Below are positions 860-40,327 of a stretch of 41,919 nt of DNA, one piece after another. The notes under the pieces are model-generated. The model saw only the letters and a list, made by a program, of their open reading frames with translations. It did not search any database and was not told the origin of the DNA. Source of the stretch: a virus; IMG/VR virus record IMGVR_UViG_3300042691_046815, positions 1 to 41,919 of that record. The stretch is one strand, 5' to 3'. Position numbers and translations under genes: made by a program. How positions within the stretch are numbered: position 1 is the first letter of the stretch; each line of letters begins with the position of its first letter.

Positions 860-1276
860 ATGACAGATCAAGAAATTCAAGAATTTATAGATGCAGTAAA
901 GGGAAAGAAGATCAGATGGAGCGATTGGCCAGTTAATATGTATTTTATACCAAATGGGAATTTTAGTTTCAAACGTTTTTATGGTTATGACTATATTAAC
1001 AATACAATCTCCCCATATGGAGGCGGTTGGTACATAAAGAATGGTTTCAATACTACCGAAAAGCAAGATTGTTGGCAATTTATAGATCCACAAGATAAAA
1101 TCGATTATGAAAACAATAAAAACGATACCCATACAAGAAAATTAAATGAATCGGACGAAGAATTAAGAAAGCGAATAAATCCTTCCTGCTCACACCCCAA
1201 CAAGTACATTAATAAAGCTACTTTAAATAACTTTTGGGTATGTCCTGACTGTAAAGCTGATTTGGGGGATGCTTAA
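860..1276 (+). CDS. Tad2/DUF2829-like N-terminal domain fused to a C-terminal zinc ribbon
   Basis: 138 residues in two parts. Residues 1-80 carry G-K-K-I-R-W-x-D-W-P...YFIPNG..., a pattern (GKKxxRxxW plus a later W) shared with the genes at 1278, 1526 and 2721. It resembles the small DUF2829 proteins that include Thoeris anti-defence protein Tad2. Residues about 109-138 are a zinc ribbon, CSH...CPDCKADLGDA, encoded by a 94-bp sequence repeated exactly at 3359-3452. The linker between the parts is charged. The start has a GGGGG ribosome site and a promoter at 810-838. The fold assignment is by pattern only. Ligand binding (cyclic ADP-ribose-type signals in Tad2) would be inference. Confidence 0.65.
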   Translation: MTDQEIQEFIDAVKGKKIRWSDWPVNMYFIPNGNFSFKRFYGYDYINNTISPYGGGWYIKNGFNTTEKQDCWQFIDPQDKIDYENNKNDTHTRKLNESDEELRKRINPSCSHPNKYINKATLNNFWVCPDCKADLGDA

Positions 1277-1277
1277 T
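1184..1277 (+). repeat. Zinc-ribbon module, copy 1 of a perfect 94-bp direct repeat
   Basis: Identical by eye over 94 nt to 3359-3452. It encodes the last about 30 residues (C-S-H ... C-P-D-C-K-A-D-L-G-D-A) and the stop. The codons for L-G-D (TTGGGGGAT) give a GGGGG ribosome site placed 9 nt before the ATG of the next gene at 1278. Confidence 0.95.
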
Positions 1278-1529
1278 ATGAACTCATCTTCCTTTGAAAT
1301 AATTGGATCAAATAAAAATAAAAACGACCAAAAATCGTATTTCAAATTTATGCTAGAGGCATCTAGAAAGGCTGTAAGATTTAAAAATTGGAAAATCGGT
1401 GTTTATTATTACATTAATGGTATAGATTATCTCGATGGTTGTTTTATTGGACTTATGGAAAGAGATGGCATTTTTGAATCTACTATATATCAAAGAATTG
1501 GGAATCTGCAAGATTGGGAGATTTTATGA
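1278..1529 (+). CDS. DUF2829/Tad2-like small protein, paralogue 2
   Basis: 83 residues. An ATG at 1269 is only one base from the GGGGG ribosome site, so I prefer the ATG at 1278 (spacing 9). The core F-K-F-M-L-E-A-S-R-K-A-V-R-F-K-N-W...YYYINGIDY...GCFIG...QDWEIL matches the neighbours at 1526 and 2721 in order: helix, K-x-V-R-x-x-x-W, a Y/F-rich strand with N-G, then a terminal W-E-I-L. DUF2829 proteins also end in a D-W-E motif. The last codons (TGGGAGATTTTATGA) hold the ribosome site and overlapping ATGA of the next gene. Confidence 0.65.
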   Translation: MNSSSFEIIGSNKNKNDQKSYFKFMLEASRKAVRFKNWKIGVYYYINGIDYLDGCFIGLMERDGIFESTIYQRIGNLQDWEIL

Positions 1530-1783
1530 TAACAACTAGATCAACAACCAATCTTTATACTCCTAAATTAAATAATATAGAAAAATCCTATTTAAAGTTT
1601 TTTGAAGAAGTTTCTGGAAAGACTGTTCGATATAAGGGTTGGGTTGGTAATAAAATTTTTATTCCATGTCAAATAGACTCTGAAACGGGTTGTTTTTATG
1701 GATACCTTAATGACGCAAATGGTATAAGTGTAACTTATACTCCTATATTTATAGAAGATATGTCTAAATGGGAGATCTTATGA
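1526..1783 (+). CDS. DUF2829/Tad2-like small protein, paralogue 3
   Basis: 85 residues, starting at an ATG that overlaps the previous stop (ATGA) 5 nt after GGGAG. The core Y-L-K-F-F-E-E-V-S-G-K-T-V-R-Y-K-G-W...FIPC...GCFYGYL...MSKWEIL closely follows the preceding gene and indicates tandem duplication and divergence. It has no zinc ribbon. The C-terminal W-E-I-L codons again form GGGAG and ATGA for the next gene. The function is unknown; an anti-defence sponge role is inferred from the DUF2829/Tad2 resemblance only. Confidence 0.65.
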   Translation: MITTRSTTNLYTPKLNNIEKSYLKFFEEVSGKTVRYKGWVGNKIFIPCQIDSETGCFYGYLNDANGISVTYTPIFIEDMSKWEIL

Positions 1784-2724
1784 TAAATGAACTTCCCCCT
1801 AGAGAATTTAACGACGATCTCAATGGAGAACGGGCTACCATCAAAGACGACTTTGAATTAGTTTACCTAAGACACCGCTATTTTAAAGCTTCTCCTAACC
1901 CAGAACCCAGTAGATACAAAGCTTTGGAAGGGATTGCGATTAATGTGGCTAAGACCGTTCATAGAAGGTTTAAAGAAGTTTTTTCATTAGTTGGATTTGA
2001 GTTAGAAGATGTTCAAAATATAGCTAGATGTCATTTAGTTAGTTATTTAGGGCTTTTTAGTTCTACAAGTACAAAAAAGAAGTGGGATAAATTTATGGAG
2101 CGACACAAGGATAAATATGGCCAAGAATCCGAGCCATCGAGTACGGATCTATTAAAACAGGATACAGCTAAGCTTTCAGTTTTCATAAGGCAAAGAATTG
2201 AAGAGTGTGCCATGTTTTGTTCACATAAGGCTTCCAATATTCAGGGTATCAAGAAAAAAGAGTTTTGCTTTTTAAGCACACAAGAGCTAACTGATGAAAT
2301 TATAAATAAACTTATGAGGAATACCAATCTTACTGAGTGCGAAGGAGTTAACATAGAAAGGATATCTTTGTTAGACTACAACACACTAAAGAAAAATATG
2401 CCTAATAAGATAATTGGAAGATCCTTCTTTTTAGATGGTTTCTACTATACTTCAATTATTGTGCCATCAGAAACTCCTACAGAAGAAAAGCTCAAAGAGA
2501 GTGGTTGGGATTATAGCGAATATGAAAACTCTAATCCTGAAACTTTATTAATTGAAAGAGAAGCTGAAAGCGATATCCAGAGATATAAAGAAGAGTTTTT
2601 GTCTTCAAGCATGAAAGAAAGACGTAGATTATTGAAATCTTTCTTAAAAAATAATAGAAGGAACCCTAATCTAAAAGACGCCATTTCTTTGGCTAATAGT
2701 ATTATTAAACAGGGGCAAGTATGA
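1780..2724 (+). CDS. Divergent sigma-factor-like protein (candidate)
   Basis: 314 residues from the ATG at 1780, coupled to the previous gene. Residues about 50-90 contain a helix-rich stretch ending F-E-L-E-D-V-Q-N-I-A-R-C-H-L-V-S-Y-L-G-L-F, which resembles sigma-70 region 2.1-2.2 (acidic D-L/V-x-Q followed by an amphipathic helix). A second helix pair, L-S-V-F-I-R-Q-R-I-E-E-C-A, could match the following region. The C-terminus is basic (K-E-R-R-R-L-L-K-S-F-L-K-N-N-R-R), as a DNA-contacting segment would be. I see no clear region 4 helix-turn-helix. It could direct phage promoters such as the TGATATTATA class, but that is inference. It may instead be an unrelated helical protein. Confidence 0.4.
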   Translation: MINELPPREFNDDLNGERATIKDDFELVYLRHRYFKASPNPEPSRYKALEGIAINVAKTVHRRFKEVFSLVGFELEDVQNIARCHLVSYLGLFSSTSTKKKWDKFMERHKDKYGQESEPSSTDLLKQDTAKLSVFIRQRIEECAMFCSHKASNIQGIKKKEFCFLSTQELTDEIINKLMRNTNLTECEGVNIERISLLDYNTLKKNMPNKIIGRSFFLDGFYYTSIIVPSETPTEEKLKESGWDYSEYENSNPETLLIEREAESDIQRYKEEFLSSSMKERRRLLKSFLKNNRRNPNLKDAISLANSIIKQGQV

Positions 2725-3044
2725 CAGAATCTGAAAAATTAGAATTCCTTGAACAAGTAAAAGGTAAGAAAATCAGACGCTTTCAATGGCCCGATAATTG
2801 GTTTTTTGTTCCTAGTGGAATTGATCACTTCGACCCAAGTAAAATGTTTGGGTTAGATGAAAGAGGAAAGGAAGATACTTGGGAAATAGAGGGTGGATTC
2901 GGGAGTTGGCAAATTGTTCTAGAAACTTCTCCTAAAAGTGAAGAAAAAACTAATGATTGCCCCCACGATTGGAAGCTAACTCAAGGGATCTTTAAAACCT
3001 ATAAAGACTGCAAAATTTGCAACAAAAAGTGGGAGGACGTATGA
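2721..3044 (+). CDS. DUF2829/Tad2-like small protein with its own C-terminal zinc knuckle, paralogue 4
   Basis: 107 residues. The N-terminus E-Q-V-K-G-K-K-I-R-R-F-Q-W-P-D-N-W-F-F-V-P-S-G is close to that of the gene at 860 (KGKKIRWSDWPVNMYFIPNG). A later segment E-D-T-W-E-I-E replaces the terminal W-E-I-L. The C-terminus C-P-H-D-W...C-K-I-C-N-K-K-W-E-D-V is a CxH...CxxC ribbon of the same layout as the portable module but different in sequence. The codons for the final K-W-E-D-V (TGGGAGGACGTATGA) provide the ribosome site and ATGA overlap for the next gene. Confidence 0.65.
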   Translation: MTESEKLEFLEQVKGKKIRRFQWPDNWFFVPSGIDHFDPSKMFGLDERGKEDTWEIEGGFGSWQIVLETSPKSEEKTNDCPHDWKLTQGIFKTYKDCKICNKKWEDV

Positions 3045-3451
3045 GAGAATCGCTATATAGACGACTCAAACTATATCAAGATCTTAAAAAATTAAATGGT
3101 AATGTATATTTTAGTCAGATCGCGACTCTATCCTCTATTATCGTGGATTTTGATATAAAAAAAATAACAAAGACTGGATATGATATACGCATTTATGTAA
3201 AATGTGGACTTTCAAATTCAGATTTTTCTAATTTGGAAACCAGATACCATGACTTTGAAGGAATAGAAACGTTCGAATGTTTAGAAAAGGATATAATCTC
3301 TAACTTTGGACAACTTCAACATAAAATTATCGATCCTGAAATAGAATATTTAGAAACCTCCTGCTCACACCCCAACAAGTACATTAATAAAGCTACTTTA
3401 AATAACTTTTGGGTATGTCCTGACTGTAAAGCTGATTTGGGGGATGCTTAA
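3041..3451 (+). CDS. Hypothetical protein carrying the portable C-terminal zinc ribbon
   Basis: 136 residues from the ATG at 3041, which follows GGGAGG; an in-frame ATG at 3017 has no better site. Residues 1-105 (MRESLYRRLKLYQDLKKLN...) are not related to the DUF2829-like family and are not recognised. Residues about 107-136 are the zinc ribbon CSH...CPDCKADLGDA, identical at DNA level to the end of the gene at 860. The stop TAA overlaps the next ATG by one base, and the ribbon codons supply its GGGGG ribosome site. Confidence 0.75.
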   Translation: MRESLYRRLKLYQDLKKLNGNVYFSQIATLSSIIVDFDIKKITKTGYDIRIYVKCGLSNSDFSNLETRYHDFEGIETFECLEKDIISNFGQLQHKIIDPEIEYLETSCSHPNKYINKATLNNFWVCPDCKADLGDA

Positions 3452-3452
3452 T
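3359..3452 (+). repeat. Zinc-ribbon module, copy 2 of the perfect 94-bp direct repeat
   Basis: Identical by eye to 1184-1277, including synonymous positions, while the upstream sequences are unrelated. This points to recent duplication or gene conversion of just the module. The GGGGG at 3439-3443 lies 7 nt before the ATG at 3451. Confidence 0.95.
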
Positions 3453-3885
3453 GGCTGAGAAACGTTCCATCCAACAAATTATTCTAGATCTTTTTAGTAT
3501 TTTGCCTAATAATCGCATTCCTAAGGGCGAAAGGCTTAATTTCTATTACGACCTAGCCCAAACAATCAAAGATGAAGGATACGAACGATCTGACATTACC
3601 ACTTCGCATAAAAGGTATATTGAAGAACATAGCGTAAATAATGACTACAAAAACAAAGCAGCCCTTAAGAGCTGGAGAGAAATGTCCAAAATGGACCTGG
3701 AAAAAGCTCTAGCTGTGGTTTTTAAAGTTAATATCTCTAAGTTCCAACCAGATAAAGAAAGTATCGAAATATCTCAAAAGTATGATACTATATATAGGGG
3801 AAATCATGAGCAGATATCTGAGTCAGAAATAAGTCCTGATTTTGAATATTTTCTCAATGAAGGTCTAAAACATGCAAGAAAGTGA
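3451..3885 (+). CDS. Hypothetical protein preceding the helicase (possible loader or accessory)
   Basis: 144 residues, mostly helical and charged, with no motif I recognise. It starts M-A-E-K-R-S-I-Q-Q-I-I-L-D-L-F. The ATG uses the ribosome site embedded in the upstream zinc-ribbon module. The end overlaps the replicative helicase start by 14 nt, so the two are probably co-translated. Phage helicase loaders often sit beside the helicase, but nothing in the sequence itself shows that this is one. Confidence 0.7.
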   Translation: MAEKRSIQQIILDLFSILPNNRIPKGERLNFYYDLAQTIKDEGYERSDITTSHKRYIEEHSVNNDYKNKAALKSWREMSKMDLEKALAVVFKVNISKFQPDKESIEISQKYDTIYRGNHEQISESEISPDFEYFLNEGLKHARK

Positions 3886-4984
3886 TCGTCAAGATATCAT
3901 ACAAAGAGTTAAAGAACTCAATGAGGAGCAAAAATCCTTAGGTAAGACTATTGACGAAAACAAGAAGATCAAAACTGAACTAGACAATCAAATTCTTAAA
4001 AAAAGAAAAGAAGAACTAGACAAAACTAAAAATCTAAAAAGCGTTATTGAATCAGAAGACCTTTTAGATATTAAGGTCGATATTCGACGAGTTATTCAAG
4101 ATATCGAAGATAGAAAGCATACCATCCCATTCCTTTTCCCAGGAACAGAAGAAACGGTACTAGTAGCTCCCCACTCCATGCCTCTCATTTGTGGTATGAC
4201 TGGTAATGGTAAGTCGTCCTTAACCGCTGCAATTGCGGCCCCGTTAGTTAGTAGTGGCCAAAAAGTCCTTATTATGGGAAACGAGGAAGCTTCCTCAGAT
4301 GCTAGGGCTAGGGTCTCTTGTATTAGGACTAAAATCAGTTATGGTGGCTATAAGAATAATAAACTAACACAAGAACAATATGTTACAGTTATCAAAGATA
4401 TTAAGGCCATGGAAGAGAATTTAGTCGTATTGGGTAATGAGGATGATGTAAATAGTTATAGAACAACCAACGTAGATGGAGTTATTTTGACCCTAAATCA
4501 AGCTAAGAACAAGTTTGACTTGATTATTTTGGACTATATTCAAAATGTTACGGTTGATGATATTGGTACAAGTGAACCCCATAAAGCAAACAATAGATTG
4601 GCCTTTGCTTTGGACGTTATTAAAAATACTGCTTCTTGTCCCATTATCGTATTCGCGCAGTGTAGATCTATTACAGAATCAAAAAAACAAACTACAGAAG
4701 AAAAATATGCTTCATCTCATCCAGTTTATAGGTGGGTTGGTGGTACAGAGATCCTTAGAAAAGCTACCGACGTAATTGAATTGGTTAGTGATTTTAAAAA
4801 CTCCAGAAGTTTGCTATATGTCCATAAGAGACGCTTTCAAGATGCCGATTTTAATCCACTTTTACTTTTGGGATTTGACAAACAAAGACAGACCTATGTT
4901 CCTTATAATAAGGAATTTGAATTAGAAGTAGAAAATAGGAAGCTTTTGAGTGCTGTTTTTACCGAAAAAGAAGATAAAGAATGA
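3872..4984 (+). CDS. DnaB-type replicative helicase (RecA-fold ATPase)
   Basis: 370 residues. It unwinds DNA at the fork using ATP and would work with the primase at 10059. Residues 1-60 form a charged coiled coil (N-E-E-Q-K-S-L-G-K-T-I-D-E-N-K-K-I) in place of the usual DnaB N-terminal domain. Walker A is C-G-M-T-G-N-G-K-S-S at about residues 106-115. Walker B is L-I-I-L-D-Y-I-Q-N-V at about 211-220. The conserved F-A-Q-C-R-S segment follows near 259, and a K-R-R-F motif near the C-terminus resembles the arginine-finger region. The length is shorter than bacterial DnaB (about 470) and closer to phage helicases. Upstream and downstream genes overlap it. Confidence 0.88.
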   Translation: MQESDRQDIIQRVKELNEEQKSLGKTIDENKKIKTELDNQILKKRKEELDKTKNLKSVIESEDLLDIKVDIRRVIQDIEDRKHTIPFLFPGTEETVLVAPHSMPLICGMTGNGKSSLTAAIAAPLVSSGQKVLIMGNEEASSDARARVSCIRTKISYGGYKNNKLTQEQYVTVIKDIKAMEENLVVLGNEDDVNSYRTTNVDGVILTLNQAKNKFDLIILDYIQNVTVDDIGTSEPHKANNRLAFALDVIKNTASCPIIVFAQCRSITESKKQTTEEKYASSHPVYRWVGGTEILRKATDVIELVSDFKNSRSLLYVHKRRFQDADFNPLLLLGFDKQRQTYVPYNKEFELEVENRKLLSAVFTEKEDKE

Positions 4985-7080: not shown

Positions 7081-7800
7081 ATGAAAGAAAAAATAGATTT
7101 ATCAAAATTTAAGAAAATCCCAGGCTTTGAAGGCTATCTTATCAATAAGCAAGGACAAGTCTATTCTGTAAAAAGAAAGATTTTAAGAAAGCCCCATGTT
7201 TGTGGGCCCTATAGTAGCGCGTTTTGTTATGTTCTTTTTTGTAAAAATAAATTCATTACTAAATCTGCCAGACAGTTGGTGCTATTGGCTTTTCCAAATA
7301 TAAAAATTACAAAACACCTAAAAGACAAGTTTGGATATAGAAAAAATAGTATCCTACAAAAACAAATAGAAAACTTGCAAATAAAAGACAGATCTACAAT
7401 TACATTCAATGAACTAATAACAAAGGGATACAAAAGAATCCCTGGTTTTTTAAATTACTTATTAACCCCAGATAACCAAGTATATTCTTTGAAGACTAAT
7501 AAAAATCTTAAACAGGGATATAACTCATATAATCTGTCTAAAGATAGTAAAGATCACTGGATGCACCTTGATACAATCATAAAACTCGTAAATGAGTCTC
7601 CAAAAGAGTCAAAACTATTAGTTGGAGATTTAGGGCCATATGGAGTGAGGAAACATAGAGTTTTAGATAAGTGGATTGCGAGTATCTATCAAAGTGGGAA
7701 AGAAATTTATATAGGGATTTTCGACACCAAAAAAGAAGCTGAAATGGCTTTTTATCACAAGTTCATAGAATTGAGAGGATATGCGCCATGGAAGATTTAA
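7081..7800 (+). CDS. NUMOD4-NUMOD4-AP2 DNA-binding protein, homing-endonuclease-derived but lacking a nuclease
   Basis: 239 residues from the ATG at 7081; a TTG at 7045 inside the methyltransferase is less likely. Two NUMOD4-like modules are visible: F-K-K-I-P-G-F-E-G-Y-L-I-N-K-Q-G-Q-V-Y-S (about residues 8-27) and Y-K-R-I-P-G-F-L-N-Y-L-L (about 120). The C-terminus (about 185-239) is an AP2-type domain: Y-G-V-R-K...W-I-A-S-I...I-Y-I-G-I-F-D-T-K-K-E-A. These modules normally bind DNA in HNH homing endonucleases. No H-N-H or GIY-YIG catalytic motif is present. It may be a domesticated DNA-binding protein or a decayed homing gene. Confidence 0.75.
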   Translation: MKEKIDLSKFKKIPGFEGYLINKQGQVYSVKRKILRKPHVCGPYSSAFCYVLFCKNKFITKSARQLVLLAFPNIKITKHLKDKFGYRKNSILQKQIENLQIKDRSTITFNELITKGYKRIPGFLNYLLTPDNQVYSLKTNKNLKQGYNSYNLSKDSKDHWMHLDTIIKLVNESPKESKLLVGDLGPYGVRKHRVLDKWIASIYQSGKEIYIGIFDTKKEAEMAFYHKFIELRGYAPWKI

Positions 7801-8227: not shown

Positions 8228-9235
8228 ATGGAGCTTATTGAAAGATTTCACAAAGAACATACCGACAAACAAATCCTCCTACTAGTTATGGCTGGTTCCC
8301 ATTTTTTTAATCTCCAATCTCCAACTTCTGACAAAGACTATCGTGGTATCTTTATTACAAAATCTGGAAAAGATACTTGCAATGAGATTTCTTTCAATAC
8401 AAACAATAAGACTAAGAACTCTAAAGAAGATATCGATTGTACCTTTTATTCGCTAAAAAAGTTTCTTACGTTATTGGGTAATGGCGATTTTAACATGATC
8501 GAACTTTTGTATGCTCCAGAAGATAAAATTCTTGTAAATTCTAAAATATATCAAGAGCTTAGATACATAAGAACTGGAATAGCTTCTAATGATATTTCTT
8601 CTTTTTTAGGTTTCATTAAAGGCGAATATAAAAAGTTTGGCATGGATAAAAACCATTATGGCATTATTCAAAACTTCGCCACTTTTTTAAATGACAATAG
8701 AATTAATTATCTATCTACCTTAAAAGATATTTGGTCAGAAATCCTAGAGTATTCAAATGAACCCGACAATTTCATCAAAATATCACAAACCAGAAATGAT
8801 AATAAAACTCTTCCTGCTATCGTAATTGCCAAAAGAATGTTTCAATATACGGCAAAGATAGATTACGTACTAGAGCAGACGAATAGTATGCTAGAAAAAT
8901 ATGGCCATAGAAGAATCCAGATGGCGACAAATAAAGTGGAATATAAAGGATTGTACCATACGATGCGCCTATTGATTGAAGCAAAAGAGTTCGCTACTAC
9001 TGGAGAATTGACGTTTCCTTTTCTAGATAAAGATTATAATAAGTTACGAGCGATTAAAGATGGCAATATTGAAGATATTGATGGATTGTTTTTGGAAATA
9101 GATCAACGAATTCAAGAACTTATGGATATAGAAAGAAATATCGTATCTAATAAAAAGAATACCCAGATTCTAATTGACAAACTAATTGAGACCTATTATT
9201 CTAGACTAAGAATTGCAAATATTATTGGAGAATAG
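8228..9235 (+). CDS. Predicted nucleotidyltransferase (COG3541/PF10127-like)
   Basis: 335 residues. The N-terminus carries the polymerase-beta-type signature A-G-S-H-F-F-N-L-Q-S-P-T-S-D-K-D-Y-R-G (about residues 22-40). This corresponds to the family pattern GSHxYGxxxxxSDxDxRG, in which G-S and the D-x-D residues bind nucleotide and metal. A helical C-terminal domain follows, as in the family. Substrates of these enzymes are poorly known; roles in RNA or nucleotide modification have been suggested. The ATG has only a weak ribosome site. It sits between small genes of unknown function, so context does not identify the substrate. Confidence 0.75.
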   Translation: MELIERFHKEHTDKQILLLVMAGSHFFNLQSPTSDKDYRGIFITKSGKDTCNEISFNTNNKTKNSKEDIDCTFYSLKKFLTLLGNGDFNMIELLYAPEDKILVNSKIYQELRYIRTGIASNDISSFLGFIKGEYKKFGMDKNHYGIIQNFATFLNDNRINYLSTLKDIWSEILEYSNEPDNFIKISQTRNDNKTLPAIVIAKRMFQYTAKIDYVLEQTNSMLEKYGHRRIQMATNKVEYKGLYHTMRLLIEAKEFATTGELTFPFLDKDYNKLRAIKDGNIEDIDGLFLEIDQRIQELMDIERNIVSNKKNTQILIDKLIETYYSRLRIANIIGE

Positions 9236-23011: not shown

Positions 23012-25639
23012 TTATGCCAAATTTATGAAGCAAAAAACATCTGTCAATACAGCAGCTACTTGTAAAGTTACTTGAGAAGGTCCAGTTTCTTGGTATTGCT
23101 GAGCACTTGTTCCCAATACCAAAGAATTTGTCATCAATACTCCATTTTTAAATACCATTAATTTTCCATTACCTACGGTATAAGGAGTTCCTGTATTAAT
23201 TACTGTTCCAGTTACACTAGTTACAAAATTTCTAAAAATTGGAGCACTTCCTAGAAAAGCGATATCGAAAACATCTACAACAGTTGATGCCGAGGCTAAA
23301 TTTATCGTAGAAATACTTGCTTCTGTATATTGATCAGTAGCGCTACCCAATCCCTGATCGTTCATTAATATACCATTTCGATATATTGCGATTCTATCTA
23401 CTCCTTGGATATAGGCTGGTACAGATAAAACGCTGCCAGTAAATGTGCTGATTATAGTTCTCCAGTTTGGTATATCAGAATAATTGATAGATTCGATAAC
23501 GTCTGTAGATACAGCAGATAGTCCTAAAGAAATGGAAGAACTTCCAGCTTCAAGATATCTGTCAACATTGCTTCCAACGCTTCCAGAATTGATTAAGTGA
23601 ACCCCATTTCTCCATACATTTAACTTACCAGAACCTAAATTATAGACATTTGGAAGTAAGCTAACAGCGGTTCCGGTTATACCATCTTGAGCTAGTCTCC
23701 AAAAAGGAGCTGCTGGAATTATAGAAGCAAAAACTTCTGGAACAAACATTCTATAAGTTAAAACATCACCAATTTCCAAATCGATATTTATTGTAATTTG
23801 AGTACTTAAAGTATTTACAATTCCAACTTCAGAATATTCTATTCCGTCGTCTATATTTCTTCCATTCAACAGAACCATCAAGGCTCCATTTCCAACTAAA
23901 TACTGTTTTTGTGTATTTCCGTTCCTACTATCTAAAGGAATTGTAATAGTAGTTCCTGCGTCTATTTCCGCAGTTACTACAAATCTTTCATAGTAAACTT
24001 TTCTAATTCCATCAACTATATCGTTTATGTTTGCTGTATTTGTAGAAATAGCTTTGGCTAATGAATCTGTAGAAGTAAAGCTATTGCTTAGATCTGCTGA
24101 TGGGAAGGCTGTATAATTTACAGAAGTTCCATTTTCTGGATCAAATCCCAAAAATTGCTTTAGTGGTAGTGGGGTTTCATCTGAGATACTTTTGCTTTCG
24201 CCTTGTTCTAACTCAGCTCCCAAGAATCTAACATAAATCCTAGGAATAGAACCAGATCTGTCATCTCTAAAATATAACCAAAAAGTATCTTCATCAAAAG
24301 GAACGTTTTCTCTACTTGCTATCTTAACATGTCTGGTCGTAGATGGAACTGGACTAGTAGAATAAACCCCATACGAATATTGGGCATCTATTCCAGAAGC
24401 TCCAGAAGAGCCGTCTAAATAAACAGAACTTAAAGTTACTTGAGACGAACTATCAATTGTTAAGATTTTATAATATTTAGTAGCATCTAAAGCTGCATTT
24501 TTAATATAATCGCCAGCTACCAAACCAGATGTCCATGGAACGCTTCCTACTGACGTAACTGTAGGGCTTCCGTTAACTACTACTAGTTTTGGCGCTATTG
24601 CTTTATCTCTTTGTAATGTAACGTAAGCTACCTGACCATCGGCTAACAAGATATCTATAGTAGATGGGTTGGCGCTTATTTGATAACTAACTCTACTTGA
24701 TACGAAGTTAATGAAAATATTGTCTGACCAGTTTAAAAGGCCAGGAGTAGCCAAACTGTGAGTTAGAGTTCCTCTACCAGAAAGAACGGTGTTTGCGGTG
24801 TCTTGTTTTAATTTAAATAAAGAACCACCCTTATTTTCGCTGTACCAAAATACGGTACCTTTTATCTCTTTTAAAGACGACATCATCGCATCTATAAGAG
24901 TTTTAAGCGAATTTATCTGCTTATCTCCACCTCTAAATGGAGAAATACTAGAATCGCTAGAATTGTATGGGTTTTCTTGTCTGCCTTCTGACTGCAAACT
25001 CCAATCAAAAGTGTAAGATGGGTTCGGGTCCGAAACTCCAGCAGTCCCAAGCCTATATAACATTGGCCTACTGTCATCGATCTCTACTACATTGTTACTT
25101 GCGTCAGTTTTGATTAGTGCAATCGGGAGGGATACGCCGTCGAAAGGACTTGTAGATACGATTAACTTGTAGCCCAATATTTGAGCCAATGGGACTGTCT
25201 TGGAGGTTTCGTCTTTAGTCGTTTGGTTCCAGATTTGAATTGGACCCAAAGTACTATCGTCTATTTCCCTTAAAAAATCAATACTTAGATAGTTTGTAGT
25301 ATTAGGAGTAAAAGAGCCTATAACTTTTGTATTTGTAGATGAATTTAAATTTTCAGAAGGAGTTCCAGAAGGAATGCTTAAAAAAGTCCCAGAAGTAGTA
25401 GATGTTCCGATTAAACAAGCAGCATTATCTACGATTAATTGTAAACTACTAGCAGATGCGCCAATAGAACCTGGCATACTGATTTCTAGTCCGCGAACAA
25501 CATATGATTCTGGGCCGTTTGTTAAAAACGATTTAACTAACTCATCGAAATCATTGGATACAGCAGATTCAATAGATCGAAGGTGTGGTACGTCCACCCT
25601 TTGTTGTGAGATAAAATTATTTCTTCTTTTGACTGCCAT
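23012..25639 (-). CDS. Large tail fibre/baseplate protein with four C-terminal beta repeats
   Basis: 875 residues. A conserved-looking N-terminus (R-R-N-N-F-I-S-Q-Q-R-V-D-V-P-H-L-R-S-I-E) probably attaches it to the baseplate. The body is mixed beta. From about residue 560 there are four related units of roughly 75 residues around a core x-N-G-x-x-M/L...Y-x-E...V-x-D-V. They are strongest in F-K-N-G-V-L-M, Y-R-N-G-I-L-M and W-R-N-G-V-H-L. The upstream sequence has a TATTATAAT-type -10 and a GGAAGGA ribosome site, divergent from the plus-strand cassette. Confidence 0.72.
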   Translation of the reverse strand: MAVKRRNNFISQQRVDVPHLRSIESAVSNDFDELVKSFLTNGPESYVVRGLEISMPGSIGASASSLQLIVDNAACLIGTSTTSGTFLSIPSGTPSENLNSSTNTKVIGSFTPNTTNYLSIDFLREIDDSTLGPIQIWNQTTKDETSKTVPLAQILGYKLIVSTSPFDGVSLPIALIKTDASNNVVEIDDSRPMLYRLGTAGVSDPNPSYTFDWSLQSEGRQENPYNSSDSSISPFRGGDKQINSLKTLIDAMMSSLKEIKGTVFWYSENKGGSLFKLKQDTANTVLSGRGTLTHSLATPGLLNWSDNIFINFVSSRVSYQISANPSTIDILLADGQVAYVTLQRDKAIAPKLVVVNGSPTVTSVGSVPWTSGLVAGDYIKNAALDATKYYKILTIDSSSQVTLSSVYLDGSSGASGIDAQYSYGVYSTSPVPSTTRHVKIASRENVPFDEDTFWLYFRDDRSGSIPRIYVRFLGAELEQGESKSISDETPLPLKQFLGFDPENGTSVNYTAFPSADLSNSFTSTDSLAKAISTNTANINDIVDGIRKVYYERFVVTAEIDAGTTITIPLDSRNGNTQKQYLVGNGALMVLLNGRNIDDGIEYSEVGIVNTLSTQITINIDLEIGDVLTYRMFVPEVFASIIPAAPFWRLAQDGITGTAVSLLPNVYNLGSGKLNVWRNGVHLINSGSVGSNVDRYLEAGSSSISLGLSAVSTDVIESINYSDIPNWRTIISTFTGSVLSVPAYIQGVDRIAIYRNGILMNDQGLGSATDQYTEASISTINLASASTVVDVFDIAFLGSAPIFRNFVTSVTGTVINTGTPYTVGNGKLMVFKNGVLMTNSLVLGTSAQQYQETGPSQVTLQVAAVLTDVFCFINLA

Positions 25640-25776: not shown

Positions 25777-26205
25777 ATGGGAAGCGATTGTCAAGAATGT
25801 GATGGACATTGCAATTGTAACGATTCTAATCCAGATCCAAATTGGTCAGAAAGCGAACAATTACAAGCATCTACAAACTCACACAAAGAAGAATATCAAC
25901 TCACAGAAGAGGAATATAAGGCATTAGCTGAATTTTATGGGGCTTGTGGGGAAGGTCTTCCAGATACAGAAGTTAGGGATGTAGATGAAGCAGAGCCAAC
26001 TGCTCAAAAAGACGAGAATTCTTACGATTATAAACCAAAAGATAAGCGAGAGATGGATACAGAAACAGAAGGAGAGAAGAGATCTCGCTTAGAAAGAGAG
26101 TCTAAGCAAAAAAGTTGCTGGCATAAAAATAAATATGTCAATAAAGCAAATACTAAGCACTTTTGGGTATGTCCTGATTGTAAAGCAGATTTGGGGGATG
26201 TGTAA
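25777..26205 (+). CDS. Acidic protein with N-terminal Cys cluster and C-terminal portable zinc ribbon
   Basis: 142 residues. The start has a cysteine cluster C-Q-E-C-D-G-H-C-N-C. The middle is acidic and low-complexity (E-E-E-Y, D-V-D-E-A-E-P, K-P-K-D-K-R-E). The last 30 residues, C-W-H-K-N-K-Y-V-N-K-A...F-W-V-C-P-D-C-K-A-D-L-G-D-V, are a diverged copy of the ribbon in the genes at 860 and 3041. As there, the final codons carry GGGGG, the ribosome site of the next gene. Its placement inside the tail operon with its own promoter suggests an inserted moron. Confidence 0.75.
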   Translation: MGSDCQECDGHCNCNDSNPDPNWSESEQLQASTNSHKEEYQLTEEEYKALAEFYGACGEGLPDTEVRDVDEAEPTAQKDENSYDYKPKDKREMDTETEGEKRSRLERESKQKSCWHKNKYVNKANTKHFWVCPDCKADLGDV

Positions 26206-26206
26206 T
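26113..26206 (+). repeat. Zinc-ribbon module, diverged third copy
   Basis: Same length and same stop position as 1184-1277 and 3359-3452. The second half is nearly identical (CTTTTGGGTATGTCCTGA), the first half diverged but the same in coded layout. GGGGG at 26193-26197 lies 9 nt before the ATG at 26207. Confidence 0.9.
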
Positions 26207-26491
26207 ATGAGATTTATTAATAATTACAATGATTTAGAAGAAGGTATGAGAATTTTGGTCCAAGGTTATAAAGATCAAAATTTTACTGGAAATATTTACG
26301 CAGTAAGTCGATATATGGAAAGAAGTTGTAGTGTAAGTATTTACTCAGATGATGGAGATAGGATAGATATCGAATATGATAATCTTTATCCTACAGTACC
26401 AAGTAATGTTAAGATTTTGGTATTAAAAGAAGCTCCACCCAAAGACGTGTCGTTTAATCAACAAGATGACGATTGGGGATTTTCTTGTTAG
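26207..26491 (+). CDS. Hypothetical protein, 94 residues
   Basis: ATG at 26207, using the ribosome site embedded in the ribbon module; an in-frame ATG at 26135 lies deep in the previous gene. Beta-rich (M-R-I-L-V-Q-G-Y, C-S-V-S-I-Y-S-D-D-G-D-R-I-D-I-E-Y) with an acidic aromatic end D-D-D-W-G-F-S-C. The end overlaps the convergent tail gene by 4 nt. No family is recognised. Confidence 0.65.
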   Translation: MRFINNYNDLEEGMRILVQGYKDQNFTGNIYAVSRYMERSCSVSIYSDDGDRIDIEYDNLYPTVPSNVKILVLKEAPPKDVSFNQQDDDWGFSC

Positions 26492-26913
26492 GCTCGATCT
26501 AGTTCACTATAAGGGATAAGTGCTTTAAATTCAAAAGAATACCTTAAAACAGACTTTGCTCCAACCTCAACACTTTCGCTTGATATCTTTGCCCTAGTAA
26601 GTAAAAGTAAGTCATAACCACTATGTCTATCTTGTACGCGAATATCGATATATGGCGAGGCTTGAATATCAGTAATTAAGGAGGCCATATTATTTGCTTG
26701 GATACCCCCACTAGCCTTAACCCTAACTCCGGTAATTTTGCCCTTAATTGAAACTTTGGTCGTATAAATTTCTTGTGGAAAGGGAACATCAATACCGTAA
26801 ATCTCTTGCTCTCCTCGATCAATAACCCAAGACAGTTGCTGAACTGAGTTATAGACTTTTCCATTAATGTATAATTTTATATCTGCGCCATTTATTGCCA
26901 TTCTAGTTGCCAT
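26488..26913 (-). CDS. Tail tube-like or baseplate tube-initiator-like protein
   Basis: 141 residues. The pattern G-A-D-I-K-L-Y-I-N-G-K-V-Y...W-V-I-D-R-G-E-Q-E-I-Y-G-I-D...G-K-I-T-G-V-R-V and a long beta C-terminus is like phage tail-tube-fold proteins. The location at the end of the baseplate pair, after a 533-residue wedge-type protein, would suit a tube or hub-connecting protein. GGGGAG ribosome site. Assignment by style and context only. Confidence 0.5.
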   Translation of the reverse strand: MATRMAINGADIKLYINGKVYNSVQQLSWVIDRGEQEIYGIDVPFPQEIYTTKVSIKGKITGVRVKASGGIQANNMASLITDIQASPYIDIRVQDRHSGYDLLLLTRAKISSESVEVGAKSVLRYSFEFKALIPYSELDRA

Positions 26914-38099: not shown

Positions 38100-38585
38100 A
38101 TGGGAATTAATGTTGACCACAATGAAAATAAGCGTCAAATTATTGATTTTATTAAAAAAAATCAAAGAGTTCCAAAAGAACAGGATCAAGATTTAAATGA
38201 AACAGAATTGGCCATTGCAATGAAATTTTATAGAGACTCAAAAACCCTACTATTTGACGAGTCGTTTACTAATAAGATAACAAATATGCGATTAAAGCAG
38301 GCTCGTGATTTAAATAGACAAAAAAGAAAAAAATATCTTATAGATTTTATTAATAAAAACAACAGGTTGCCAAGTAAATATATCTTAGATGAAGTAGCGT
38401 TACATAGACAGCTAAATACCTATACAAAAATTAGTAATCCATGCTTTGATGTGGAAATATTAGATTTGGCTGTTATGACCGATAGGTGCTTTAAGTCGGG
38501 TATTGAGTTTTCTTATAGAAAAAAAATAAATAAAGCATTTGTTCAAACAAAACAATATCTCGATAGGAGTGAAAATGAAAAATAA
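38100..38585 (+). CDS. Two-repeat helical protein, paralogue A
   Basis: 161 residues in two related halves. Each begins with I-x-F-I-x-K-N-x-R-x-P (I-I-D-F-I-K-K-N-Q-R-V-P; L-I-D-F-I-N-K-N-N-R-L-P), then an acidic E-x-x-L/A helix and a Y...F-D segment. The next gene has the same two halves. The spacing resembles small DNA-binding 'helicase-associated' repeats, but I cannot confirm the family. Good AAGGGAG ribosome site. Confidence 0.65.
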   Translation: MGINVDHNENKRQIIDFIKKNQRVPKEQDQDLNETELAIAMKFYRDSKTLLFDESFTNKITNMRLKQARDLNRQKRKKYLIDFINKNNRLPSKYILDEVALHRQLNTYTKISNPCFDVEILDLAVMTDRCFKSGIEFSYRKKINKAFVQTKQYLDRSENEK

Positions 38586-39048
38586 CAAAAGATCACAATT
38601 AACAAAAGATAAGATAAAATCATGGATTTCTCGTAATGGTAGATTGCCAAAAAGAAATGGGGCTTCAGTAGAAGAGTCTAAATTTGCCGCTATTATGGAA
38701 AACTATCTATCAAAGAAAAGTGTTCAATTTGATCCAGATTTTAGGGCATATGTTTTGGCCAATTTTAAAAGAAGAGAAAACAATAAAAGTGAACATGATC
38801 TTGATGGTGGAAAAAAGAGATTACTTAGTTTTATCAAAGCACATAAACGGGTTCCTTCTATGTTTATCCCAGAAGAAAAGAAGCTTTGTTATTTTCTAAG
38901 ATATTTGACACAGCCTAGTAGTGTAGGATTTGATAAAAATATAAGAAAGCAGATACAAGAAATGGACCAAACTTTTGGGACAAGTATTCCTTGTAAATAT
39001 CGAACCCAGATAAATAAAGTTTTAGACAAAGCGGATATAAGCTTGTAA
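38575..39048 (+). CDS. Two-repeat helical protein, paralogue B
   Basis: 157 residues from the ATG at 38575 (GGAGTG upstream); an earlier in-frame ATG at 38539 is inside the previous gene. The halves start I-K-S-W-I-S-R-N-G-R-L-P and L-L-S-F-I-K-A-H-K-R-V-P, matching the preceding gene. Tandem duplication followed by divergence is evident. Basic overall (many K and R), consistent with nucleic-acid contact. Confidence 0.65.
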   Translation: MKNNKRSQLTKDKIKSWISRNGRLPKRNGASVEESKFAAIMENYLSKKSVQFDPDFRAYVLANFKRRENNKSEHDLDGGKKRLLSFIKAHKRVPSMFIPEEKKLCYFLRYLTQPSSVGFDKNIRKQIQEMDQTFGTSIPCKYRTQINKVLDKADISL

Positions 39049-39436: not shown

Positions 39437-39655
39437 ATGGAAAACGATACTATCTATTTAATTAAAGCTGGAGATGGATTTTATAGATCTCACGATGAAA
39501 CTCTTTGGTTCTTAGAAGATGGACTAGGTAGAACTCCTCTATCTAGAGGACAATTTGTACTAAGAAGCTCTGGAGAGGTTTGGTGTAGATATTATGATAT
39601 AAGGAACCTTGCTTTATTGCTTAAAAAACAAGAACTTATACACTTACCTCTTTAG
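39437..39655 (+). CDS. Small paralogue family member 2 (xIKxGDxF type)
   Basis: 72 residues: L-I-K-A-G-D-G-F-Y...L-S-R-G-Q-F-V-L-R...L-L-K-K-Q-E-L-I-H-L-P-L. The start and end blocks match the genes at 39060 and 40097; the middle differs and has no cysteine-rich metal site. It has its own promoter at 39391 and a GGGAG ribosome site. Confidence 0.65.
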   Translation: MENDTIYLIKAGDGFYRSHDETLWFLEDGLGRTPLSRGQFVLRSSGEVWCRYYDIRNLALLLKKQELIHLPL

Positions 39656-39663
39656 GAGTTTTT

Positions 39664-39846
39664 ATGAAAGTATATGTTATAATGGATTATTCAGTAGATC
39701 TAGATACTTATGAAATCAATTCTATTTGGTCAACTGAAGAACTAGCTGATAAAGAAGTAGAAAGATTAATAAATCTCGATTTTGAAAAATTTTATAGATT
39801 GTTCCCTTTTGAATTAGATAAACAAACAACAAGGATTAATAAATGA
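39664..39846 (+). CDS. Small hypothetical protein, 60 residues
   Basis: Strand-turn start M-K-V-Y-V-I-M-D-Y-S-V-D, then an acidic helix W-S-T-E-E-L-A-D-K-E-V-E-R. The good GGAG ribosome site is in the spacer after the previous gene. This type (MKVYxV... EexAxxxV) resembles many small phage proteins that sense or report, but no family is certain. Confidence 0.6.
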   Translation: MKVYVIMDYSVDLDTYEINSIWSTEELADKEVERLINLDFEKFYRLFPFELDKQTTRINK

Positions 39847-40097
39847 CAACTTTATTTACGATTTTACTAGCCCTTTTTCTTATAGCATCTGACATTTTTA
39901 ACGATTATGTAGTATCTGATACTAACAAATACAATTTTGGATTTATTGTTGGTGTCACAGCCTTATCTTTAATAAATTCCTTATTTCCTAATAATTCTAT
40001 GACATTAAAAGACTTTGGTATTTTATTTGGCACATATGTTGTTTTTGGCATCGTTAGAGGAATATTAGAAGTATTCCATAAAAACAGGAGCTTATAA
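39843..40097 (+). CDS. Small membrane protein, 84 residues
   Basis: Two to three hydrophobic helices (L-F-T-I-L-L-A-L-F-L-I-A-S; F-G-F-I-V-G-V-T-A-L-S-L; F-G-I-L-F-G-T-Y-V-V-F-G-I-V). The start overlaps the previous stop (ATGA) and the end overlaps the next start. No signature of holins beyond hydrophobicity and small size, so I do not call it a holin. Confidence 0.6.
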   Translation: MTTLFTILLALFLIASDIFNDYVVSDTNKYNFGFIVGVTALSLINSLFPNNSMTLKDFGILFGTYVVFGIVRGILEVFHKNRSL

Positions 40098-40327
40098 TGA
40101 AAAATAAAGTAAAACCCTACACACAAAAGTCCCATATCGAACTGATCAAGGCGGGAGATATCTTCTATCATGGCGATTTCCATAATTTCTTTGTTTTGGA
40201 AAAAGATCTACGTGATGGTCTTTTCCGCCTAAGGTTCGTCGATAAATCTTATGTTTCCTTAGTTTTCCCTATAAAAGTTTTAGTAAATCTGATGAATAAA
40301 GGTCAGTTAGTCCATTTGCCTTTATAA
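40097..40327 (+). CDS. Small paralogue family member 3 (xIKxGDxF type)
   Basis: 76 residues: L-I-K-A-G-D-I-F-Y-H-G...F-V-L-E-K-D-L-R-D-G-L-F-R-L-R-F...M-N-K-G-Q-L-V-H-L-P-L. Clearly related to the genes at 39437 and 39060, with a longer basic N-terminus. AGGAG site upstream. The last gene before a gene-free stretch. Confidence 0.65.
   Translation: MKNKVKPYTQKSHIELIKAGDIFYHGDFHNFFVLEKDLRDGLFRLRFVDKSYVSLVFPIKVLVNLMNKGQLVHLPL

Follow-up and report, generated by a model that had tools for sequence, protein, structure and literature searches.

How did one stretch of 94 bases come to form the 3′ end of two unrelated genes of the same phage, and what does the peptide that it codes for do there? The question is raised by IMG/VR virus record IMGVR_UViG_3300042691_046815, a linear fragment that we analysed over its positions 1-41,919 (41,919 bases; hereafter the window). 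An initial annotation of this DNA had noted identical 94-bp segments at 1184-1277 and 3359-3452 and a related one at 26113-26206. Here we show that these segments code for a module that proteins exchange as a unit within one group of tailed phages. We conclude that this mobile ribbon sits at the C-terminus as, most likely, a docking tail spread by gene-end recombination, a reading to which we give about an even chance.

The same C-terminal tail on unrelated proteins

The early region of the window holds two module genes and three paralogs of the first:

1184-1277, plus strand: module copy 1, C-terminal ribbon SCSHPNKYINKATLNNFWVCPDCKADLGDA; profile match E 4.9e-19
860-1276, plus strand: gene with copy 1; body (the part upstream of the module) paralogous to the 2721, 1278 and 1526 products (BLASTP 860 vs 2721, E 4e-10; 1526 vs 860, E 0.003; 1526 vs 2721, E 4e-5)
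1278-1529, plus strand: tail-less 860 paralog, by protein comparison
1526-1783, plus strand: tail-less 860 paralog, by protein comparison
2721-3044, plus strand: 860 paralog with a different CxH...CxxC tail (CPHDW...CKICNKKWEDV) that does not match the module profile
3041-3451, plus strand: gene with copy 2; body unrelated to the 860 body (identity at the shuffled level)
3359-3452, plus strand: module copy 2, with the same 94 bases as copy 1

The repeat was found as annotated. Copies 1 and 2 are identical at 94 of 94 bases and form a maximal direct repeat (no further base leftward, ending at base 94 rightward), and their 60-bp flanks match at 22/60 and 19/60 positions, about the level of chance. 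Copy 3 shares 69 of its 94 bases (73%) with copy 1. Each of the three copies codes for the final 30 residues of an open reading frame (860-1276, 3041-3451 and 25777-26205) and includes its stop codon, in agreement with the initial annotation. Copies 1 and 2 both code for SCSHPNKYINKATLNNFWVCPDCKADLGDA, with a TAA stop followed by one T that runs into the next gene, and the repeat edges coincide with the first ribbon residue and the stop codon. The remaining direct-repeat families of at least 30 bp in the window are shorter than 94 bp and at most 88% identical. An exact 94-bp repeat in 42 kb is far too improbable to have arisen by chance. Misassembly at the repeat might rearrange its flanks, but it is unlikely to have created two copies that lie in two intact genes embedded in operons.

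The bodies of the 860 and 3041 products are 17.9% identical, and shuffled versions are 18.7% identical. The claims that the upstream parts are unrelated and that the module was recently copied by itself, without them, both held. That tail and body are separate units is shown most clearly by two patterns taken together, since one tail occurs on differing bodies and one kind of body bears differing tails: the paralogs 860, 1278, 1526 and 2721 carry, in this order, the module, no tail, no tail and a different tail. These four genes (860-3044) lie in tandem or near-tandem and share a K-x-[IV]-R-x-x-W motif, while their C-terminal tails vary. For gene 3041, a longer version starting with TTG at 3017 is possible, but it is the ATG at 3041 that overlaps the stop codon of the gene upstream.

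Distribution among phages

The module was searched with degenerate DNA patterns for the C-terminal motif and with a profile built from 15 tails. It was found in 23 other IMG/VR viral contigs, some of which are evidently near-duplicates of each other, giving 32 copies (including the three of the window) and 21 distinct sequences. Every copy lies at the extreme C-terminus, with 1-6 residues after ADLG. When the N-terminal partners were tabulated, at least seven dissimilar body clusters were found to bear the module, one of them fused to part of a known phage beta-solenoid family. The module is therefore not the property of a single orthologous gene family. Mean pairwise identity is 59% for the module, 25% for the bodies and 21% for shuffled sequences, and the module is the more similar part in 104 of 105 pairs.

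The suggestion that the module moves among phage proteins is therefore upheld by several unrelated bodies in the relatives, but not for phages at large: in the searches made, the module was confined to a single group of related tailed-phage contigs. This group is distantly related to Myxococcus phage Mx1 through a baseplate gene (34% identity); Mx1 itself lacks the module by profile search. The profile did not find the module in five sequenced phages; phage G and MarsHill each gave a single partial match that is not the module, the one in MarsHill lacking the first knuckle. Short-query tblastn in annotated phages gave no useful match, and the pattern-scan matches in genome contigs were hydantoinase-like proteins with an internal FWxCxxCxADLG, plus noise, and not the module.

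A predicted zinc ribbon with an unusual first knuckle

The module has the pattern C-x-H or CC, about 15-18 residues, then W/Y-x-C-x2-C-[K/G]-A-D-L-G-D. Two classes can be distinguished, CC..P.KYKN and C.H..KYIN, both finishing with W/Y-x-C-x2-C-x-A/T-D-L-G. All 21 distinct sequences have an invariant C and CxxC plus exactly one of C(-1), in 14 sequences, or H(+2), in the other 7, never both and never neither. Each sequence thus has four Cys/His ligands in two knuckles, the first of them non-canonical. The exchange of one ligand for another is the pattern expected of a metal site, although each of the two classes may go back to a single ancestor.

In an AlphaFold model built from 19 alignment rows, the module block has a predicted local distance difference test (pLDDT) score of 83-87 and three short predicted strands at 114-116, 123-125 and 132-135, in agreement with the two or three short antiparallel strands around the metal site that are expected of a zinc ribbon. 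Outside the module, pLDDT is mostly <50, and the 3041 body is not reliably modelled. Together, the ligand pattern and the confident three-strand model support a predicted zinc ribbon, and the module probably folds by itself around one zinc ion.

Comparisons with known folds gave at most leads. Foldseek aligned the module to 8iue_V over 30 columns at 2.0 Å with a probability of 0.57, but at E 3.9, which is not significant, and to 6f40_V over 30 columns at 2.0-2.1 Å, but at E 7.5, a lead only. We take both chains to be Brf1 of RNA polymerase III initiation complexes. PDB profile matches of the module were chiefly rubredoxin and LysW knuckles, none significant, and a PHROG search gave no good match to it. 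In fold searches with the 3041 model (VIA-align, PDB, viral), the low-confidence body determined most of the outcome, and we drew no conclusion on that body from them. The 860/2721 body was modelled poorly (mean pLDDT 55), and no significant match came from searching with its predicted fold.

A cassette between two tail genes

The third copy of the module lies in a different region of the window:

23012-25639, minus strand: phage tail gene on one side of the cassette; 52-54% identity to L010, L012 and L022 over about 500 amino acids
25777-26205, plus strand: cassette gene with copy 3; body acidic (net -17) and rich in Cys at its start; 77% identical to L004:857-1321
26113-26206, plus strand: module copy 3, diverged; profile match E 1.8e-18
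26207-26491, plus strand: cassette gene 2, 94 amino acids, without the module, kept in L004 (71% identical to L004:1321-1608)
26488-26913, minus strand: 141-amino-acid phage tail gene on the other side; 44-94% identity to relatives

Wherever contigs were inspected together with the flanks, the module genes were grouped in a small cassette that runs antisense to two conserved phage tail genes, the 141-amino-acid gene and a gene starting MAVKR/MSVRR...QRVDVPHLKSIESAV. The cassettes of the relatives hold one or two module genes, often with a 71-amino-acid gene in between, and gene 25777 sits at the same place. Only in the phage of the window is the module also found outside the cassette, in the replication region.

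By clustering, the cassette bodies comprise a KKRRT...VYS family, an acidic MSRD family, a QECDGH family (the window and L004) and separate bodies in L011 and L012/L021. Several are strongly charged or of low complexity, the net charge of the MSRD and QECDGH families being -13 to -17. In the cassette of L067, the gene at 2671-3315 (minus strand) codes for a chimera: residues 2-134 match phrog_5070 (E 4.5e-48), and the end consists of the pre-module segment and the module. Its body has YdcK-like beta-solenoid repeats in Pfam (E 2.1e-6, under the cut-off). This chimera and the differing bodies at one place indicate that the cassette keeps its C-terminal tail and exchanges heads. Genes for GIY-YIG homing-type endonucleases lie beside the cassette in L008 (7328-8026) and L016 (2856-3545 and 5074-5874), and we suggest that they could promote head exchange. 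The CC-class cassette proteins (L014 1364-1750 and relatives) also have a conserved DNGGWxxRDxLPTGDPIGDV in an otherwise variable body.

Origin of the identical copies

Copy 3 matches its L004 ortholog at 75/93 positions in the module (356/426 in the flanking 141-amino-acid tail gene), and copy 1 is equidistant from copy 3 and the L004 module, at 68/93 each. Since copies 1 and 2 are 100% identical, compared with 75/93, they share an origin far younger than the split between the window phage and L004. Copy 3, which is nearer to its L004 ortholog than to copy 1, is not their recent source. A diversity-generating retroelement with template and variable repeats (TR/VR) was considered and rejected: the 25 mismatches are not confined to adenines, with just 9 on A when copy 3 is taken as the template and 4 when copy 1 is.

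Two histories fit the identical copies: a second gene received a copy of an older early-region module, or gene conversion equalised two modules that were both old. In the second case, which we consider a real possibility somewhat short of an even chance and which is compatible with either function discussed below, both early genes long had the module and there was no new attachment. The 25 of 94 bases at which copies 1 and 2 depart from copy 3 mean that the early-region lineage is old, and the repeat is limited to the shared 94 bp, as expected of conversion. However, gene 3041 has no detectable relative, module-bearing or not, and an older module there cannot be demonstrated. Adjacent cassette genes in L005, L014 and L033, moreover, retain two very different modules that were not homogenised.

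A docking tail or a stability cap

In the mechanism that we propose, 3′ gene ends code for a self-contained, putative zinc ribbon of about 30 residues. Its home is the accessory cassette between two phage tail genes, where the C-terminal tail stays and the head changes. In the window phage, the ribbon also ends two accessory genes of the replication region, where its DNA was made identical very recently. As a common docking tail, it could guide accessory proteins that are small and evolve fast to a single shared partner in the course of infection, and the gene ends may have been copied by ordinary homologous or ectopic recombination. We hold the docking of small accessory proteins onto one shared partner with moderate confidence. 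A nucleic acid or a transcription complex is our first guess for that partner, since zinc ribbons often act there. We propose more tentatively, as somewhat improbable, that the ribbon is a general addressing tail, fused to an open-ended set of small effectors that it directs to one common complex of host or phage, and that these phages recruit new effectors by gene-end swaps at the cassette and elsewhere in the genome. If the module is a docking address, one tail pull-down could expose the shared target of many unrelated, unannotated small phage proteins.

Several observations weigh against the proposed mechanism. No Pfam zinc-ribbon family scored above its curated cut-off with 15 members of the module; the best was Zn_ribbon_LapB (E 0.0026), with 14.6 bits for member 1 against a cut-off of 25.7. 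The ligand switch tracks the two module classes and may be one evolutionary event, and conserved residues near the ligands could serve folding alone. A 129-kb relative, G023, has a single copy, and the spread of the module between loci may be rare, since only the window phage has it off the cassette.

The main rival to the docking tail is that the ribbon is a folding or stability cap for the C-termini of otherwise disordered, fast-changing small proteins, which has no dedicated partner and spreads by lending stability to many of them. The charged or low-complexity cassette bodies of the MSRD and QECDGH families speak for a cap, as do the non-significant PDB profile matches to rubredoxin and LysW knuckles, and CxxC-G-A-D-L is a usual signature of a structural ribbon. 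However, conservation in both classes reaches well past the metal ligands, to K7, N10 and the complete A-D-L-G-D end, and the 860 body has tail-less paralogs, so that its fold needs no cap. We regard a cap without a partner as somewhat unlikely. If the ribbon is only such a cap, the module would still be a reusable minimal domain, which may let phages evolve new small proteins fast.

A tag for degradation or for targeting to the ribosome is far less probable. The module is always C-terminal, as such a tag could be, but its final residues vary (GDA, GDV, GNV, GDIK, DVND, GDC, INES), unlike those of a C-terminal degron, and its conserved part resembles a metal-binding fold. It is extremely improbable that the repeat acts as DNA or RNA (a recombination site, a terminator or a regulatory RNA) with its coding incidental, as the perfect DNA identity and the same placement at the stop codon might suggest, because each contig has its copies in frame at the ends of genes, homologues keep amino acids and not synonymous codons (copy 3 and the L005 module have the same amino acid or stop at 20 of 31 codon positions and the same codon in 4 of the 19 degenerate ones), and predicted RNA folds are no better than those of shuffles (z-scores +0.54 and +0.16). 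This codon divergence and the lack of RNA structure beyond shuffles indicate that the peptide, and not the DNA, is the unit under selection.

Relation to known systems

Unrelated phage proteins have been described that have a homologous fragment in common through ongoing recombination, a fragment being counted by the sequence-based criterion when it has at least 50 amino acids, covers at most 50% of both proteins and is at least 30% identical (PMC10684548, Nat Commun 2023). The module likewise is a shared fragment on unrelated phage proteins. It covers 30/138 and 30/136 residues at 100% identity, within the limits on fraction and identity; at 30 amino acids (33 in the BLAST stretch with flanks), it is shorter than the length limit, by which that survey would have missed it. 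It differs in that one 30-residue tail is reused inside a single genome at 100% DNA identity. We therefore see here a genuine if somewhat unusual instance of an established process, phage domain mosaicism, which documents gene-end exchange at a scale of 30 residues, below the cut-off of the published survey.

Bacillus phage G is also a phage with multiple zinc-ribbon proteins: it has about 35 copies of another zinc ribbon, for which roles as transcription factors or as structural DNA-binding proteins have been suggested (PMC7824862). The module profile gives only a 16-position partial match in phage G (E 0.15), and as far as this search tells the families differ. The predicted fold of the module is a small two-knuckle beta fold of the general kind seen in the B-ribbon of Brf1/TFIIB and the rubredoxin-like ribbons of LapB/LysW, but its first knuckle is C-x-H or CC and not CxxC. 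No description of the tail was found in the open-access literature searched, in line with the initial annotation, which knew of no such phage system.

The 860/2721 body, a small early phage protein, was also compared with the Tad2-like sponge proteins (PF11195), which its K-K-x-R-x-x-W motif presumably resembles. This identity found no support: PF11195 had no match in the window even at E 10, and no Tad2 was among the PDB profile matches.

Neighbouring genes

Genes 860 and 3041 lie within a densely packed plus-strand run that adjoins the following gene:

3872-4984: DnaB-like helicase (PF03796, E 6.6e-11)

Used as single queries, the 860, 2721 and 3041 proteins and the helicase retrieved no relatives from viral contigs, and the first three retrieved none from annotated phages either. 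The gene at 1780-2724, which has no Pfam match, is conserved beside a DnaB-like helicase in relatives G004, G007 and G023, and weakly in Mx1; its N-terminal part recalls sigma-factor region 2, which we take to be a likeness only. In G004 and G023, its homologue and that of the helicase are only about 15 and about 12 bases apart, so that the three genes that lie between them in the window, 2721, 3041 and 3451, are absent from this place in both relatives.

Elsewhere in the replication region, 8228-9235 codes for an RlaP-type nucleotidyltransferase of an RNA-repair family (PF10127, E 4.2e-15). A weak NUMOD4/AP2 homing-type gene lies at 7081-7800 of the window. Two further pairs of small paralogs were observed at 38100-39048 (38100/38575, E 6e-13) and 39437-40327 (39437/40097, E 2e-7).

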